Below are positions 1-9,340 of a stretch of 12,850 bases of DNA, piece by piece. This DNA is from an uncultured Clostridia bacterium. GTDB taxonomy: Bacteria > Bacillota > Clostridia > Oscillospirales > Ruminococcaceae. Both the position numbers and the translations under genes were made by a program. The notes beneath the pieces are model-generated. The model had not been told where the DNA came from, did not search any database, and saw only the letters and a program-made list of their open reading frames with translations. The stretch covers positions 1 through 12,850 of the forward strand of contig CAMGJS010000014.1 in NCBI GenBank assembly GCA_946056455.1, written 5' to 3'. The stretch's first letter is position 1, and every line of letters begins with the position of its first letter.

Positions 1-265
1 ATTGGCAATTTTTCATAACACCAATCTGTAAACGATGATTAAGATTTCGGCATTTACATTCTCATCGTTTCAAAAGTAGCAATTCCCAAATGCCGTGTTC
101 CTTGACGGAAAAGTCCGTCCTGTCTGCCAATGACGAGAACAAGATTTTCGTGGCTACGCTGATGCGTAGTTATGTTGCAGAAACCAAAGAAAAACACTCA
201 CGATTAAGGACCGTCGAGATGCTTTGGTAACTTACTAAACTCGCACAAACTGTTATCCGCAACAT
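1..265 (+). ncRNA. Candidate structured RNA, unidentified, open at the left edge
   Basis: No convincing gene is visible here, but complementary segments are dense. Pairs seen: 1-7 with 125-131; 30-38 with 62-70 (9 bp); 48-55 with 88-95 (8 bp, interleaved with the previous pair, so a pseudoknot if both form); 104-109 with 114-119 (loop AAAG); 133-139 with 145-151 (one G-U); 154-159 with 164-169 (loop TGAT); 172-178 with 259-265, enclosing 183-189 with 222-228. From 125 to 178 the helices are separated by only one or two bases, typical of a folded RNA junction. Strand is assumed from the downstream genes and the G-U pair. The first helix reaches base 1, so the RNA probably begins outside the window. 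It could be a known mobile-element RNA (for example an IscB-associated HEARO/omega RNA or an intron piece) or a new one; I recognise no diagnostic motif. A DNA-level transfer or replication origin is an alternative. Confidence 0.45.
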
Positions 266-295
266 TGTCCGATAAATAAGCGGAGATTGTTCGCA

Positions 296-335
296 CCAAT
301 CCGTTTCTATTACGGAAGGAATAGAAACGGATTGG
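296..335. repeat. Perfect 16-bp inverted repeat with 8-base loop
   Basis: The arm at 296-311 is the exact reverse complement of the arm at 320-335, with loop ACGGAAGG. Neither strand has a T-run after the stem, so it does not look like an ordinary terminator. The outer CACCAATC at 294-301 also occurs at 19-26. An outer pair, 253-261 with 371-379 (9 bp), encloses the hairpin. Possible roles are the last domain of the candidate RNA, an oriT-type or protein-binding hairpin of the element, or an RNase-resistant end. Confidence 0.85.
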
Positions 336-353
336 AAAAGTGGGAAAAATCAA

Positions 354-448
354 CGCAGAATCGGAACTTATGCGGATAATAAATATGAAAATCAGTGAAA
401 TCTGCGAAAAATCGGCTTTTCGCGGACATGCTCGGGGTATGCCCTGAG
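354..448 (+). promoter_or_regulatory. Leader with competing hairpins upstream of tnpW-like gene
   Basis: A 10-bp hairpin pairs 401-410 with 417-426 (loop ATCGGC, one T-G pair). A second pairs 431-437 with 442-448 (loop TATG, one G-T pair) and is followed by an A-rich tract from 449 and mixed A/T runs to 484. CGCAGA at 354-359 can instead pair with TCTGCG at 401-406, breaking the first hairpin. This looks like an attenuator-type leader. No clear sigma-A promoter was found, so the role is inferred from the fold alone. Confidence 0.35.
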
Positions 449-529
449 AAAAAAATAAAAATTTTTCTGAAAAAATATTTTTTTGTGTTATATCATCTAA
501 TGAAAACTTTTGCGAAAGGAGGCTTGCCT

Positions 530-696
530 ATGAACGAAACAAGGGACGACCCTTTCTTCGGTGCGTCGACTGTATACATAATCGGCAATTCTATATACAT
601 CGTCGGGATAAAGTTCAACACGCAAAGCAAAGAAACAGTTTCAACCGTAGTTTTATCTCTCATTGAGCATGAGGTACAAAATTCAGAAAAAGAGTA

Positions 697-697
<1 letters not shown>
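530..697 (+). CDS. Small TnpW-like transposon-encoded protein
   Basis: This 55-residue protein starts at the ATG at 530, seven bases after a strong AAAGGAGG site at 515-522. The longer reading from 395 runs through the leader hairpins and lacks such a site, so it is rejected. The centre (YIIGNSIYIVGIKFN, then SKETVSTVVLSLIEHE) resembles my recollection of the TnpW family: a short beta-rich 'IGNTxYxVxVxF' segment, then 'SKET' and a helix ending in 'LIxxE'. These small proteins sit just upstream of TnpX-type serine recombinases in clostridial conjugative elements, which is the situation here (recombinase 65 bases downstream). Biochemical function is unknown to me. No signal peptide or membrane segment is seen. 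Assignment rests on pattern and neighbour. Confidence 0.7.
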
Positions 698-2394
<1,697 letters not shown>

Positions 2395-2420
2395 CATACG
2401 ATTTAAAATAGTTCGCTATT

Positions 2421-2455
2421 GGTAGTGCCCGAGGGGGCTCTCCTTACGCACCACC
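2421..2455. repeat. Imperfect inverted repeat between element and dut
   Basis: GGTAGTGC at 2421-2428 and GCACCACC at 2448-2455 are inverted copies. On - strand RNA all eight pairs form (one G-U); on + strand RNA there is one A-C mismatch. It lies 24-58 bases beyond the dut stop in that gene's direction, so it may be the operon's terminator stem, though a T-run directly after it is missing. Its position just after a serine recombinase gene also fits an attachment-site half or a junction. GA dinucleotides, the core used by TnpX/TndX relatives, occur at 2431-2432 and 2464-2465. The sequence does not decide between these. Confidence 0.45.
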
Positions 2456-2478
2456 CTTTCTCTGAAATAAAATGCTTA

Positions 2479-2913
2479 TTATCCCTTAACTCCTGTCGAA
2501 CCGAAACCGCCCTCGCCCCGTTCTGTATCGGGCAAGGTATCGGTCAATATCATATCCTCGATAATCACGGGGGTAATAACCATCTGCGCTATACGCATAC
2601 CGTTTTCGACGACAAAATCCTCCTTGCCGTTATTTATAAGCGCAACGCATATCTCTCCGCGATAATCGCTGTCAACAACGCCCACTCCGTTTGCAAGAGC
2701 TATCCCTTTTTTTGAGGCAAGTCCGCTTCTTGCATAAATCATAACGGCGGTATTTTCGTCAGCGGCAACGGCAATGCCTGTGGGGACTACGGCTATTTCC
2801 CCTTTATTAATTACAACGGGACTTTCAACGCAGGCGCAAAGGTCATAGCCTGCGCTACCCGATGTTGCTCTTTCGGGGACTTTTGCCCCGTCCTTCAAAA
2901 GTTTTATCTTCAT
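2479..2913 (-). CDS. dut: dUTPase (deoxyuridine 5'-triphosphate nucleotidohydrolase)
   Basis: This enzyme hydrolyses dUTP to dUMP and pyrophosphate, keeping uracil out of DNA and supplying dUMP for dTMP synthesis. All five motifs of the trimeric dUTPase family are present in the 144-residue protein: AGYDL at 21-25, ARSGLA at 61-66, GVVDSDYRGEI at 78-88 (catalytic Asp81, uracil-binding Tyr84), RIAQMVI at 107-113 and the C-terminal RGEGGFGSTG at 132-141. The length is normal for bacteria. The ATG shares its A with the stop of the upstream U32 gene (TAATG), and AGAGG lies about ten bases before it, so translation is probably coupled. It is the last gene of the operon, facing the mobile element tail to tail. 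Confidence 0.97.
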   Translation of the reverse strand: MKIKLLKDGAKVPERATSGSAGYDLCACVESPVVINKGEIAVVPTGIAVAADENTAVMIYARSGLASKKGIALANGVGVVDSDYRGEICVALINNGKEDFVVENGMRIAQMVITPVIIEDMILTDTLPDTERGEGGFGSTGVKG

Positions 2914-4934
2914 TATTCAATACCTCTGTAATAAAGTCCCCTTGTGAAATTTTCATAAGGGTTCTTTTCATTTTCATAGTTTTCTATCGCCTTGTTGATT
3001 TCATCGGCAGTTTCATTCTCAAAGAGCATTGACACAAAATCGACATTTTTAATGTCCTGCTTTTTATCGGCAAGGCAGAGTATGTCGCAGTTGAGTATCT
3101 CTGCATAGTCCTTTGTGCAGGCGACTTCAAACTCCCGTCCTGTTCGGTCACGAAGGATTTTTCTGCATTCCTTACAGCCTATCTGCGATTTTATCGGGCA
3201 GTTTCTTGTGAGCATAAGAGGCAGTTTTCCGTGAACGATTATTCCACGGGGAATGTCTGCTCCGAGTGAGGAGATTTGCGACAGTTTAAGCTCGAACGAA
3301 AGCTCTGTATCAACTGCACCGAGGTTTTTTATTTCCATCAAAGAATATGAATTTGCGATATTCATTCCATATCCCGAATGACAGACAAAGCCTAATTTTC
3401 CTGCGGTTTCAAGGTGAGAAATATTATTGCAGTATGCGTGACGAAAACCTTTTTCAAAAGCTTTTTGAAGAAGCTCCCGAACACTGTTCTCGTCCGTTAT
3501 GAACCTTGGTGGTGAGAGCAGGATTTTTTCATCGGGAGAGATTTTTTCAAACTCACTAAGGGGCAGAACGATTTCCTTTATATCGTCCGAAAGTCCTTTA
3601 ATCTGCTCGGCTTTTTTAAGGTGTACCCTTATATGCGGTTTTTCCGTTACGATATGCTTTTCGGGCATTGTAACTTTTTCGGAGAAGGCTGTTACCGCCT
3701 TTTTCTCGCAAAGCTTCTCTGAAAGAGCGTCCGTCACTTTTCGCCTGAGGTCGTTTATATCAGAAACGGTCATAAAAAGTCCGCTTTCGATTTCCGCCGT
3801 TATGCTACCTGCAAAAAATGGTGTTCCGCCAAGCTTTGACAGCTTATTCTCAACATATTTTTCATCGAGGGGGACGCTTTCCGCCTCTTGCGGAATGTTG
3901 CCCGTAACGGTGACAGAATTTCCGTCGCAAATGGCAGTCAGCGTTACATTCTGTCCACGAAAAACCTTCATTTCAAGGTCGAGCTTTTTTCTCGGAACAT
4001 CTCTGCGGTAAAGTTCCCGCAAAGTCGGAAGAACATCCTTTGCCGATGTGACATCGTCCTTTTCTCTTATGCCGAACATATTTCTGCCCAAGTTGCCGTG
4101 AAGATAACCGTTTGTAAAACCGCTCCGTGAAAAAACAGCTTTTAATGTGTCCATATCGGGAGCAGTTCCGTCAAGGGATTTTTTCAATGCGTCAACGGCG
4201 GCGGCAACATATTCGGGGCGTTTCATTCTGCCCTCTATTTTGAATGAAGTCACTCCTGCGTCGGCAAGAAGCTTTATTTCGGGGATATATGAAAGGTCTT
4301 TCAGCGACAATGCGTGATAAGTCGAATTATCCGCTGAAAAGGGCAGACGACAGCTTTGGGCACAAAGTCCTCTGTTTGCGCTTCTTCCGCCTATCATTGC
4401 GGACATAAAACATTGTCCCGAAACGGACATACATAACGCTCCGTGAACAAAAACCTCCACCTCAATGGGCAGAGAACAGATTTCCCTTATCGTTTCTAAG
4501 GGAAGCTCTCTTGAAAGGACAACTCTTGAAAAGCCCATTGAAAGAGCCTTCTTGGCGCCGTCCATAGTATGAATAGTCATCTGCGTTGAAGCGTGCAAGG
4601 GCATATGGGGCAAGGCGGTCTTTATCGCCGAAAAAACGCCCAAATCCTCAATAATAAATGCGTCCACCCCTGTTTCTGCGGAATGGACTGCAACTTTTAA
4701 AAGGTCTTTGAAATTGTTGTCGAAAATAACGGTGTTTATCGCCTGATGAACGGCTACTCCGTTCTTGTGGCAATAGTCGACCGCCTCTTTGAGCTCGTCA
4801 TCGGAAAAATTAGTCGCATTCTGTCTTGCGGAAAATTTTTTCGCTCCGAGATATACAGCGTCCGCACCGCATCTTACTGCGGCATAGACGCTCTCAATGC
4901 TCCCCGCGGGAGCTAAAATTTCGGGATTTTTCAT
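2913..4934 (-). CDS. Peptidase U32-family protein, RlhA-like
   Basis: This 673-residue protein has the U32 domain (about 1-290), starting ILAPAGSIESVYAAVRCGADAVYLG. It carries the family signature EVFVHGALCMSVSGQC at 160-175 and a later pair of cysteines in RGLCAQSCR (191, 195). Cys168, Cys175, Cys191 and Cys195 are the likely iron-sulfur or metal ligands. A long C-terminal half corresponds to the DUF3656-type extension of the large U32 proteins and ends with a cysteine-rich segment (NCPIKSQIGCKEC). The large E. coli member RlhA hydroxylates a 23S rRNA cytidine, and other members hydroxylate tRNA uridine, so an RNA-hydroxylation role is more likely here than collagenase activity. The substrate cannot be read from the sequence. 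The ATG is seven bases after the dnaB stop and the gene overlaps dut by one base. Confidence 0.88.
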   Translation of the reverse strand: MKNPEILAPAGSIESVYAAVRCGADAVYLGAKKFSARQNATNFSDDELKEAVDYCHKNGVAVHQAINTVIFDNNFKDLLKVAVHSAETGVDAFIIEDLGVFSAIKTALPHMPLHASTQMTIHTMDGAKKALSMGFSRVVLSRELPLETIREICSLPIEVEVFVHGALCMSVSGQCFMSAMIGGRSANRGLCAQSCRLPFSADNSTYHALSLKDLSYIPEIKLLADAGVTSFKIEGRMKRPEYVAAAVDALKKSLDGTAPDMDTLKAVFSRSGFTNGYLHGNLGRNMFGIREKDDVTSAKDVLPTLRELYRRDVPRKKLDLEMKVFRGQNVTLTAICDGNSVTVTGNIPQEAESVPLDEKYVENKLSKLGGTPFFAGSITAEIESGLFMTVSDINDLRRKVTDALSEKLCEKKAVTAFSEKVTMPEKHIVTEKPHIRVHLKKAEQIKGLSDDIKEIVLPLSEFEKISPDEKILLSPPRFITDENSVRELLQKAFEKGFRHAYCNNISHLETAGKLGFVCHSGYGMNIANSYSLMEIKNLGAVDTELSFELKLSQISSLGADIPRGIIVHGKLPLMLTRNCPIKSQIGCKECRKILRDRTGREFEVACTKDYAEILNCDILCLADKKQDIKNVDFVSMLFENETADEINKAIENYENEKNPYENFTRGLYYRGIE

Positions 4935-6729: not shown

Positions 6730-7371
6730 TTATTCCTCCTGTGATTTTCTCATATCCGTAACGGTGTAACCGTCATAGTCAAATAATGTTTTGTCGCCCT
6801 TTTCGCCGTATTCTATAAGGTACTCAGCATAGAGCTTTTCGTCCTTGTCATAGAACGATATATCGCGGAGCTTTCCCTCGCCCGTCAGAAAAAGACATTT
6901 TTCGTCCCCCGTGGTATAAATCTCCGTCAGACTTCCGTCATCGTTTGTGGCGCTGTATGTCGGAGCGTCTGCCCCCACAAGCTGTGCAACGGTGAAGATA
7001 AAGTCGATGTCCGCATACATCACTTCATCGTGAGCGTTTTCTGCGGGGTATATCGCGGCGCACTTTTTAATATCGTCAATGACGATATAGCTGTCGGCGG
7101 TTTTTATAAACCTTGCCGAGTAATTGTCGTACTCTATCCGCCTTACCTCTTTATCTCCCTTGCGATAATACTCTGAAACTCCCGTTTCGCCGTAAATGCA
7201 GGAAATAGTTTTTATGTAATAATCTTCGCCGCTTGCGTCAGCCTGCGATATTTCCTCTTTTGCCTGCACAAAGCTTTCGGCATTTCCGAAAAGCTTTTTC
7301 TGTGAGCAGGAGCAGAGTGTGAATGTCAATGCAAAAAAGAGGAAAACCGCCGTTATTTTTTTTAGTTTCAT
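6730..7371 (-). CDS. Small lipoprotein of unknown function
   Basis: I do not recognise this 213-residue protein. It has a classical lipoprotein signal peptide: Lys2, Lys4 and Lys5, a hydrophobic stretch (about 8-19) and lipobox LCSC with Cys22 as the likely lipid-modified residue. It should therefore be anchored on the outside of the membrane. The mature part is acidic, rich in Tyr and Asp, and alternates short strands with turns (for example YYRKGDKEVRRIEYDN and SYIVIDDIKKCAAIYP). That pattern recalls LolA-like beta-sheet carriers, but this is only an impression. It starts two bases after the gdpP stop (TAATATG) and its 3' end carries the rplI ribosome binding site, so it is embedded in the operon. 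It interrupts the usual direct gdpP-rplI order. A weak GTGAGA precedes the start, suggesting coupling to gdpP. Confidence 0.85.
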   Translation of the reverse strand: MKLKKITAVFLFFALTFTLCSCSQKKLFGNAESFVQAKEEISQADASGEDYYIKTISCIYGETGVSEYYRKGDKEVRRIEYDNYSARFIKTADSYIVIDDIKKCAAIYPAENAHDEVMYADIDFIFTVAQLVGADAPTYSATNDDGSLTEIYTTGDEKCLFLTGEGKLRDISFYDKDEKLYAEYLIEYGEKGDKTLFDYDGYTVTDMRKSQEE

Positions 7372-7372
7372 A

Positions 7373-9340
7373 TTAACTTATCTCACTTTTATGTTCGTCA
7401 ATAGCGCTTATAAGAGCCGCCTTTGCCTCGGCAAGAGATACTCCCTCAAGCTGAGCGCCTGCCATTGTCTGATGTCCGCCGCCGCCTAACTTTTCCATAA
7501 TGACCTGAACATTCATAGCGCCCAAGGACCTTGCGGAAAAGCAAGCCATTCCGTTATTCATATAGATAACGAAAGCCGCGTCAACTCCTGCAATGCCCAA
7601 AAGCTCGTCCGCCGCCTGCGGAGCGACAACTCTTATATCGTCAATGGGAACATCGTTTATTGAAATAGCACAACGCTCATATATTTCAGCGTTTGCCACA
7701 AGCTTTGTCTTTTCGTGATAGCTTTCCATTGAGTTTGCAAACAAAGAGCGCACCGCAACGGTATCGGCGCCCATTTTTCTCAGGTACGCCGCCGCTTCAA
7801 AGGTTCTCACGCCCGTTCTCATAACAAAGCTTTTTGTGTCAAGCATAATTCCTGCAAGAAGAGCCTCCGCCGCATACTGACTTAATTTTCCTGCCTCGCC
7901 GAAGTACTGAACAATCTCCGCAACCATTTCCGACGCTGACGAAGCATAAGGCTCGTGGTGGAAGATAACTGCGTTTTCGATATAATTCGTCACCTTGCGG
8001 TGATGGTCGATAACCACAACCTGCTTTGCCTTTTCATAAAGCTCCGACGATTCGACAATATCTTTGTTATGGGTATCCACGATGATAAGGAGCGATGTAG
8101 GAGTAATCTCGGCAATCGCCTCTTCGGGAGTGATGAAAAGGTCGTCGGCATTTTCGTCCATCTCGTTTATTCTGTCGATAAGCGAAACGGCAAGGTTCTG
8201 TTCGGTATTGACAACGACATTCGCTGTTTTTCCTAAGTTTATTACCGCTTCGGCAAGACCTACCGCCGAGCCTACGCTGTCAAGGTCACCGAAACGGTGC
8301 CCCATAACATAAACGGCGGAACTTTCCTCGATAAGTCCCAAAAGACCTTTGGCTATCATTCTTGTCTTTACCTTGGTCTGTTTTTCTATTCCCTGGGATA
8401 CTCCGCCGAAGAAACGATAGTCGCTTTCGGTCTTGACAGCCGCCTGGTCGCCGCCTCTTCCGAGAGCCATATCAAGCGCCTGCTTTGCATAGCTTTCACA
8501 TTCTTCAAGGGTTTCTCCTCTGCCGACGCCTATTGAGAATGTTACGCTCAGTTTATCGTCAACGGAAATCTGTCTTGCCTTATCGAGTATCTTGAAGCGG
8601 TCGTCAATTATCTTCTGCAATTTCTGCTCCTCGATAATGACAAAAAATCTGTCGCTTGATGTCTTGCGGAGTATTCCTCCCGTTTCTTCGATAAAGCCTT
8701 CCATAAGCTTTTCTATCTGTATTAAAATTCTCGCCTTGTCGCTTTCTTTGATGCTCTGCAAAAGGTCCTCGTAGTTATCGACGGACGCTAACAGAACGGC
8801 AGGTCTTGTGTTCCTGAAATTTTCCTCCAAAAGAACAAAATCGGTAACATCTTCAAAATAAAGCATTGTAAGCTCTATTTCTCCCTTTTTGTTGCGTGAG
8901 GCGAAAACGCGGTAGTATCTGTCCTTATAGTCGATTACGGTACCTTGTCTTGTGTTCGCTTTTTCAATGTCTATCTGGACAATCGACTGAATGTTCACGC
9001 CGAAAGGATCCGCCGTGTCATAGATATATTCGGTAAATCTTCTGTTGAACCAGACTATCTTGCCTGCGTCGTCGATGATTATTGTGGGAGCGGGAAAGTT
9101 ATATATAGTTTCACGCTCGGTATTGTTTATCTGCTCGTCAACCTCGGCGACATATCTGTGGATATTCCTCTGCGCCGCTACAAACTGCATTACAAATACA
9201 AAGCTGACAAGAGCCGTCACAAAAAGCATTGTCCAGGATAAAAGCTCGTTTTCTTTTATAACTATCGCCGCCGAGCAGAACGCCGTGAAGATAAGCGCCG
9301 CACCCGTCACCTGAAACAACAGCCATTTTTTGCCTTTCAT
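7373..9340 (-). CDS. gdpP: Cyclic-di-AMP phosphodiesterase GdpP (YybT family)
   Basis: This membrane enzyme hydrolyses c-di-AMP to pApA, affecting osmolyte transport and cell-wall stress. The 655-residue protein has the full domain set. Two N-terminal membrane segments lie at about 7-28 and 33-54, followed by a PAS-like domain (about 80-165) and a degenerate GGDEF domain (about 175-300, SSDRFF instead of GGDEF). The DHH phosphodiesterase domain has GHRFGDLDS at 347-355, DTHN at 422-425, DHH at 445-447 and LDTKS at 500-504. A DHHA1 domain has GGGGHQTMAG at 619-628. All metal ligands are present, so it should be active. The ATG follows a GGCGGTGA site, and the gap to rnj is 33 bases without a terminator. 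The order gdpP-(lipoprotein)-rplI-dnaB is the Firmicutes arrangement with one added gene. Confidence 0.96.
   Translation of the reverse strand: MKGKKWLLFQVTGAALIFTAFCSAAIVIKENELLSWTMLFVTALVSFVFVMQFVAAQRNIHRYVAEVDEQINNTERETIYNFPAPTIIIDDAGKIVWFNRRFTEYIYDTADPFGVNIQSIVQIDIEKANTRQGTVIDYKDRYYRVFASRNKKGEIELTMLYFEDVTDFVLLEENFRNTRPAVLLASVDNYEDLLQSIKESDKARILIQIEKLMEGFIEETGGILRKTSSDRFFVIIEEQKLQKIIDDRFKILDKARQISVDDKLSVTFSIGVGRGETLEECESYAKQALDMALGRGGDQAAVKTESDYRFFGGVSQGIEKQTKVKTRMIAKGLLGLIEESSAVYVMGHRFGDLDSVGSAVGLAEAVINLGKTANVVVNTEQNLAVSLIDRINEMDENADDLFITPEEAIAEITPTSLLIIVDTHNKDIVESSELYEKAKQVVVIDHHRKVTNYIENAVIFHHEPYASSASEMVAEIVQYFGEAGKLSQYAAEALLAGIMLDTKSFVMRTGVRTFEAAAYLRKMGADTVAVRSLFANSMESYHEKTKLVANAEIYERCAISINDVPIDDIRVVAPQAADELLGIAGVDAAFVIYMNNGMACFSARSLGAMNVQVIMEKLGGGGHQTMAGAQLEGVSLAEAKAALISAIDEHKSEIS

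Follow-up and report, generated by a model that had tools for sequence, protein, structure and literature searches.

A pseudoknotted RNA family in Clostridia mobile elements, possibly paired with a tyrosine recombinase

IS110 recombinases as well as the TnpB and IscB nucleases have established RNA partners, the HEARO or omega RNA of IscB and TnpB elements being a structured RNA encoded beside mobile-element genes; for tyrosine recombinases, such as Cre, Xer and lambda Int, we know of no RNA partner. In integrons, the attC sites are folded nucleic acid that adjoins a tyrosine recombinase. Elements of the IS110 type carry a noncoding RNA upstream of the mobile-element recombinase gene (PMC11187229). 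GOLLD and ROOL are large structured RNAs of unknown function in mobile DNA, located near the tRNA islands of phages (PMC12286853), whereas STAXI, which consists mainly of a pseudoknot repeated two or three times, occurs near integrase and other DNA-handling genes (PMC2864571). In addition, 28 candidate structured RNAs have been listed near integrase, sortase or phage domains (PMC8040213).

The RNA analyzed here lies in a stretch of 12,850 nucleotides from an uncultured gut bacterium of the Clostridia, family Ruminococcaceae (hereafter, the window, which denotes this whole stretch). The window is the entire contig C14 of a 74%-complete genome, so that there is no sequence to the left of base 1, and the conserved RNA unit spans approximately positions 1-432, its 5' part being cut off at the contig start. 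The original prediction, made from the sequence alone, had placed a pseudoknotted structured RNA at 1-265: a structured, pseudoknotted RNA is present there, but the unit reaches to about position 432 and starts left of the contig, and some of the proposed helices were wrong. Window 1-432 contains a pseudoknotted RNA whose family is absent from Rfam, and we tentatively regard it as the noncoding half of an RNA and tyrosine-recombinase module in Clostridia mobile elements (probability roughly 0.45). The features discussed below are all on the forward strand:

1..432, +, structured RNA (compact type), 5' end cut by the contig start; 85% identity to L004, fold z-score, paired-site constraint
1..28, +, remnant of a 5' hairpin, ATTGG/CCAAT; complete (CAGATTGG/CCAATCTG) in the L004 sequence
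30-38/62-70, +, pseudoknot stem 1, 9 bp; L005 keeps nine pairs
48-55/88-95, +, pseudoknot stem 2, 8 bp; kept in L004 and L005
104..119, +, hairpin GACGG/CCGTC; identical in three sequences
123..181, +, three-way junction: outer helix 123-127/177-181, arms 133-139/145-151 and 153-159/164-170
183..228, +, helix 183-189/222-228 with an inner hairpin at about 195-221
228..250, +, conserved stretch TAACTTACTAA..ACAAAC; the window carries the variant TACTAAAC of TACTAACC
253..379, +, long-range helix 253-261/371-379; window-L004 alignment
297..334, +, hairpin containing CCGTTTCTATT..AATAGAAACGG; motif counts, match to model R1
402..425, +, 3' hairpin 402-409/418-425; in L005 with one both-side change, one pair broken in L004
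530..697, +, TnpW-like ORF, 55 aa; Pfam TnpW E 0.043, below the cut-off
763..2379, +, large serine recombinase, 538 aa; Pfam Resolvase, Recombinase, Zn_ribbon_recom, DUF4368
2380..2445, +, right end of a mobile element; the chromosome resumes at 2446

Among same-genus genomes (n = 6), DNA searches identified relatives of the RNA in two besides the window's own, namely L004 (genome G005), with 85% identity to the window over 1-432, and L005 (genome G002), with 74% identity over 300-415. The two interleaved pairings at the core of the original prediction hold up in these homologs. Stem 1 differs between L005 and the window by both-side changes in seven of its nine pairs, with one further pair changed to G-U and one unchanged, whereas one of the eight pairs of stem 2 is changed on both sides. 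The score of the H-type pseudoknot was reached by none of 1,000 dinucleotide shuffles in the window, L004 and L005 each. Differences between the window and L004 fall on 4 of 148 paired vs. 58 of 277 unpaired positions (Fisher p 3.6e-8), and the three pairs touched comprise one both-side change, one A-U to G-U change and one broken pair. The helices entering the covariation counts, both for these three sequences and for the six long relatives described below, were chosen by eye, with the shuffle tests and the window-L004 comparison of paired and unpaired positions serving as controls for the former. The fold of window 1-432 is maintained by compensatory change. Neither of the two outcomes named beforehand as contradicting the prediction was observed: the homologs covary, and no reading frame crosses the predicted segment. 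No ORF of at least 60 aa, open ends included, overlaps window 1-394 in the ORF list.

The remaining helices vary in how much the relatives say about them. The three predicted hairpins are all present in the sequence. The 6-bp hairpin at 104-119, with its four-base loop, is unchanged in the window, L004 and L005 and, therefore, uninformative about pairing; the second of this kind (154-169) and the wobble-containing one (133-139/145-151) form the arms of a three-way junction. In L005, two of the five pairs of the outer helix of this junction carry both-side changes; the arm at 153-170 shows one G-U to A-U change, and the arm at 133-151 is read from the sequence only. Helix 183-189/222-228 carries one A-U to G-U change in L004, and in L005 its four counted pairs are kept, two of them changed on both sides, with the other three of seven unpaired at the aligned positions. 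Near the long-range helix, an alternative helix, CCCGTT/AACGGG, slipped by about two bases, is possible in the L005 sequence; the 297-334 hairpin has two both-side changes in L005 and one lost outer pair. The two longer closing pairs of the original prediction are not supported: 172-178/259-265 loses several pairs in L004 and competes with the long-range helix 253-261/371-379, and 1-7/125-131, which gains no support from L004 because it is unchanged there, competes with both the 5' hairpin that is complete in L004 and helix 123-127/177-181.

Window 1-440 folds with a z-score of -5.5 (0 of 100 shuffles as good), and the whole units of L004 (z -6.0) and L005 (z -7.1) each beat 100 of 100 shuffles. 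Most of the stability comes from the second half (217-432, z -8.5), and 1-216, which holds the pseudoknot, has a z-score of -0.3 in a nested fold. Segment 1-265 alone, for which a packing beyond chance had been proposed, is at chance level in stability (z -1.27, 21 of 200 shuffles as good). Across the wider set of loci, the sense strand folds slightly better than the antisense strand (29 of 44 tiles, p 0.03; 12 of 17 loci, p 0.09), an advantage that settles no reading.

Searches with Rfam 15 yielded no family at the gathering threshold in the window, with seven chance-level hits up to E 10, nor in L004, L005, L107 and L105; 15 further loci gave only an unrelated tmRNA in L070. The best sub-threshold hit, SpR14_sRNA at L005 2081-2151 (36.2 of 50 bits), falls outside the RNA. 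The window RNA is a family missing from Rfam 15. Of the two possibilities offered in the original prediction, a new element-borne RNA agrees with the covariation in relatives, the mobile setting and the lack of an Rfam family at threshold, whereas a known class such as HEARO does not: HEARO, presumably among the Rfam models, gave no gathering-level match and was absent from the seven hits. Accordingly, although HEARO or omega RNA is likewise a structured RNA beside mobile-element genes, the window RNA differs from it in this respect, and no IscB- or TnpB-like gene was recognized by eye in the window's ORF list. The Rfam models of GOLLD, ROOL and OLE had no match at threshold in the window and relatives; the RNA here adjoins a recombinase gene, in contrast to GOLLD and ROOL, and forms one long multi-helix unit, unlike the repeated pseudoknots of STAXI, as these are described in the sources cited above.

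In phage and plasmid records, window 1-780 had no match, nor had L004 in plasmids and L005 in phages. A scan of viral contigs for TAACTTACTAA..ACAAAC returned 28 loci, in which local BLAST found only short matches (best E 0.02) that we took as chance, and the exact hairpin pattern occurred at 0 viral loci. Window 386-432 had three short matches, of 22-35 bases, in G031, G241 and G279. Among the open-access papers brought up by full-text searches, no description of such an RNA was recognized from titles and abstract openings, and these searches gave no paper from 2015 on that mentions a tyrosine recombinase together with a structured noncoding RNA. An earlier, unnamed sighting may be among the candidates of PMC8040213.

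Two genes in the same orientation, int1 and int2, come after the RNA in L004 and L005. The product of int2 (~300 aa; Pfam Phage_integrase) is a tyrosine recombinase, as it is in loci L008 and L009, and the R, K, HxxR, H and Y positions, which we take to be the catalytic residues, are invariant in 16 aligned recombinases. An integron integrase was not found, the L008 int2 scoring 37 bits with NCBIfam integrase_gron against a cut-off of 265; besides this, the locus differs from integron attC sites in having one long unit upstream of the gene and variable arm spacing. The product of int1 (~200 aa), conserved in 11 aligned sequences, has no Pfam domain above cut-off and, as read from the alignment, ends before the HxxR motif. 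At L009 4008-4598 (reverse strand) and L004 1930-2538, it reads as a truncated recombinase paralog without the catalytic half, and possibly is a DNA- or RNA-binding partner. It looks rare, with nine protein clusters in a search of 5.8 billion proteins limited to shared words and two loci in the species-genome collection, both on already known contigs; no viral relative of int1 was found. Models of defense systems matched none of four proteins.

The RNA-int1-int2 unit of ~2.75 kb appears to move by itself, judging from end comparisons among genomes G002, G003 and G005, which also provide its inferred ends. In contig C47 of G003, chromosomal DNA gives way to a final stretch of 176 bases matching the left part of the G002 unit at 99.4% identity; by ORF reading, this chromosomal DNA adjoins a CAP-domain-like gene, and the G005 unit lies beside the same gene. 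At the other end, the G002 and G003 sequences agree past int2 and diverge after '..CTATAACATCGTTTTTC'. The left-end region of the unit (L008 at ~3380-3700; L009, reverse, at ~1120-1400) contains CTATAGA repeats, one of which continues as ATAGAAAC, the letters of one arm of a conserved RNA hairpin; near the six long RNAs, ATAGAAAC was not seen outside the hairpin.

The setting of the RNA in the window differs from that in its relatives. The tyrosine recombinase directly downstream of the RNA in L008 and L009 is not found here, where a TnpW-like ORF and a serine recombinase follow, and no relative of int1 or int2 was found in the window's genome in searches at E <= 0.001, <= 1e-10 and <= 1e-40. 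The proposed likeness of the small ORF to TnpW is weak (14 bits vs. a cut-off of 25), and the gene at 763-2379, named an integrase in the original prediction, is one of the large serine recombinase kind. Window 579-2444 shares 93.5% DNA identity with L091; the common sequence continues through GCCCGAGG (2434) and diverges afterwards, placing the element end between 2434 and 2445. Beyond it, window 2446-3400 is 92% identical to contig C15 of G005, which starts at the base matching 2446, whereas contig C36 of the same genome spans the 2446 junction without the element (54-base overlap, 89%). In G005 (L130, C36), a terminator-like palindrome (GGGTGGTGCATAACGCACCACCC) precedes a dUTPase-like gene, and the window element appears to have inserted in the loop of this palindrome. 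By sequence reading, CTCGGG at window 431-436 and CCCGAG at 2428-2433 are possible inverted ends of the serine-recombinase element, in which case the RNA would lie just outside its left end.

Relatives of int2 were found in 12 of 394 genomes of the order (E <= 1e-10), 4 of 391 genomes of the class (E <= 1e-40), and 5 of 63 and 2 of 12 genomes in two families re-searched with an alignment. Alignment A5 used 13 of 27 proteins, and a search with an int2 alignment returned one weak viral relative, L092 (24% identity). Because these loci were picked through the recombinase, as were all loci except L004, L005 and the window, neither how often the RNA occurs without the enzyme nor how often the two are paired is readable from them. 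The sample obtained from the RNA side consists of the window, without the enzyme, L004 and L005, both with the enzyme downstream, and a match of model R1 (below) in G533.

Upstream of the recombinase gene, 65 of 100 tiles from 18 loci have z-scores below -2, compared with 31 of 90 control tiles in or after the gene, which are partly coding (Mann-Whitney p 5e-6). This test excludes L072 and L078 (no RNA-like upstream region), L070/L099 and L111 (int at the contig start), and L091 (int2 tail only). For motif counts, 22 upstream regions were considered, consisting of the 18 tiled loci, the second L106 copy, L072, L078 and the window. The GTTTCTAT..ATAGAAAC hairpin is present in 7 of the 22 and in none of 40 shuffle sets; TACTAACC occurs in the sense orientation in 8 and in the antisense in 0 of the 22, with 0.3 per shuffle set. 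A looser hairpin, GTTTC..GAAAC, or the motif [TG]ACTAA[AC]C is found in 15 of 22 regions, the chance levels for these loose forms being ~1.2 and 1.4 of 22 shuffled regions. The seven regions with neither belong to L072, L078, L086, L090, L106 (twice) and L109, and those of L086 and L090 carry GAGACAG.

Six long relatives, picked by eye (L081, L083, L084, L085, L088 and L105), all contain the same elements in the same order: hairpin A1, the long-range helix A2, a second hairpin, A3, and a terminator-like one with a T-run, A4, which lies 117-359 nt before the gene start used (for L088, the start of a short int-like ORF). In the alignment of A1-A2 (A11), 14 of 27 predicted pairs show both-side changes; in that of A3 (A12), 4 of 21 pairs do, with a slightly unfavorable covariation term (+0.67 kcal/mol). 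Small hairpins of the ATTTCGGAAT type occur within the long RNAs, several per upstream region, in these six loci and in L082, and this motif is found in 8 of the 22 regions vs. 2.3 in shuffles. A second, strongly sequence-conserved RNA-like type, B (L087, L107, L108, L110), reaches the recombinase start and carries the conserved blocks GGCGGCTGTGAAAAT..CCTGAGTTTAGCAGGT..GATGCTACCGCAGG..TTACTAACC..GGAGACAG. The long and B types have a common order of junction, hairpin and ACTAA motif, by eye only. Within the proposed family, a pseudoknot domain conserved by covariation was found in the compact type (three sequences).

The neighborhoods of these genes contain other mobile-element genes. Close to int, 8 of 18 loci encode a large serine recombinase (L009, L082, where it is on the other strand, L083, L087, L088, L105, L107, L110), and so does L091; the L008 sequence stops at int2. 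Another tyrosine integrase or a fragment thereof is found within a few kilobases in L089, L090, L108 and L109, whereas the single neighboring gene scanned in each of L081, L084, L085 and L086 is neither a serine recombinase, an IS110 transposase nor a tyrosine integrase. In L106 (G1052), two related tyrosine recombinase genes are arranged in tandem (3102-4007 and 6846-7751), each with its own long hairpin GTCTCAATT..AATTGAGAC before it and an IS110-family transposase gene after it; judged by the ORF coordinates, the stop codon marked in each match is where the gene itself ends.

A covariance model, R1, built from A11 (six long members), matched window 293-454 with 46.7 bits (E 7e-10), a score at the level of a family match, partly through the palindromic hairpin. 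Other scores were 40.0 bits for L008, 22.5 bits for L106 and 42.1 bits for L082, the last at model positions 57-160, outside the A1 hairpin. However, the palindromic A1 by itself scores 22-35 bits on the wrong strand elsewhere; the values for L009 are 22.0 bits in sense vs. 23.5 in antisense; 1 of 10 viral control loci reached 20.5 bits (E 0.003); and among the B-type loci, L087 gave only 16.8 bits, whereas L107, L108 and L110 were without a hit at E up to 10. The R1 match, therefore, points to kinship of the matched domain rather than of the whole RNA. An RNA-first search with R1 recovered 1 of 150 genomes, the already known G533, and, with stricter filters, no further member in the 149 other genomes of its family.

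The best single reading is a separate RNA that works with the recombinase, in view of its position on the strand of the gene, its conserved fold and the terminator-like hairpin between the two in the long type. Both close relatives, as well as more distant loci found through the enzyme, have a structured RNA region upstream of a tyrosine recombinase gene and in its orientation; the close relatives were found by DNA search without using the enzyme, and each has the tyrosine recombinase downstream. The RNA would be transcribed, the recombinase would bind it, perhaps at the sequence-conserved hairpin GTTTCTAT/ATAGAAAC, and the RNA would help or control recombination. The window copy, where the recombinase genes are missing from the place they occupy in relatives and a serine recombinase follows, may be a remnant, act in trans, or work with the serine recombinase. 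Against such a module stand the window itself, an RNA without a tyrosine recombinase, none being found in its 74%-complete genome, the 7 of 22 upstream regions with neither the hairpin nor the ACTAA motif, the slight strand difference in folding, and the R1 results for L009, L107, L108 and L110.

The IS110/IS1111 bridge RNA or seekRNA offers the obvious comparison, being a noncoding RNA that adjoins a mobile-element recombinase gene, but its partner is a DEDD transposase rather than a tyrosine recombinase, and the RNA here is ~430 nt or more. No DEDD partner of the IS110 type was found (L008 and L009 have a tyrosine and the window a serine recombinase); IS110 genes occur only in L106, after int, and possibly are a separate element. 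Bridge RNA matches its target, whereas here no match was clearly beyond chance: in 12 comparisons of the RNA with ends and flanks, where the true recombinase sites may differ, the longest match was 9 nt (10 of 200 shuffles as long), and the remaining ones were 7-8 nt (at least 70 of 200 shuffles as long).

The main competitor of a separately acting RNA is a cis-acting leader, that is, a 5' untranslated region of the recombinase operon that sets expression by attenuation, a ligand or translation control. In L004 and L005 as well as the B-type loci, the RNA extends as far as the recombinase start and inspection by eye shows no terminator in between, which speaks against the module and makes a leader plausible; scanning L008 3380-4300 for terminators (with loops of 3-8 only) revealed none, and one promoter-like match, at L008 3693-3722, stands shortly before the RNA, although four such matches vs. 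2.7 in shuffles are no enrichment. Nevertheless, a leader is less likely than the module, considering that the six long relatives have a terminator-like hairpin and T-run between RNA and gene, that the conserved fold far exceeds the size of usual attenuators, and that a different gene follows the RNA in the window. The recombinases of this tyrosine family might even be ribonucleoproteins, with the upstream RNA as an obligate cofactor that shapes, licenses or targets recombination and the window representing an RNA handed to a serine-recombinase element; we regard this extension as rather unlikely.

Next, the recombinase could bind the hairpins as single-stranded DNA or as inverted DNA sites, similar to integron attC, in which case RNA would not be the active form. 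The sequence-conserved arms GTTTCTAT/ATAGAAAC, the recurrence of ATAGAAAC in the left-end region of L008 and L009, and the weak difference between sense and antisense folding would fit such sites. However, the arm spacing ranges from 8 to 21 nt, unlike in a crossover site, several pairs vary through G-U, and the pseudoknot, the strand-specific motif (8 sense, 0 antisense of 22) and the terminator-like ends fit RNA better, rendering structured DNA improbable. Less probable still is a large ornate cargo RNA of the GOLLD or ROOL kind, borne by the element for another purpose and merely neighboring the recombinase. Its length of up to roughly 1 kb, the pseudoknot, the nearby integration genes and the window copy without a tyrosine recombinase would be expected of such a cargo, and the link to the recombinase may be overestimated because most loci were found via the enzyme; yet, there is no match to GOLLD, ROOL or OLE at threshold, and both relatives found independently of the enzyme still have the recombinase downstream. 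Finally, chance or a non-functional mobile-element repeat, for which only the unremarkable stability of 1-265 alone could be adduced, is contradicted by the compensatory changes, the 0 of 1,000 shuffles and the paired-site constraint, and is highly improbable.

If the RNA acts as a cofactor, we know of no earlier case of a tyrosine recombinase with an RNA partner. The presence of a conserved RNA of at least 430 nt beside a family member with intact catalytic residues makes the question of an RNA partner directly testable. Even if the RNA is only a regulator, it represents a family that Rfam 15 lacks and whose pseudoknot is well supported.
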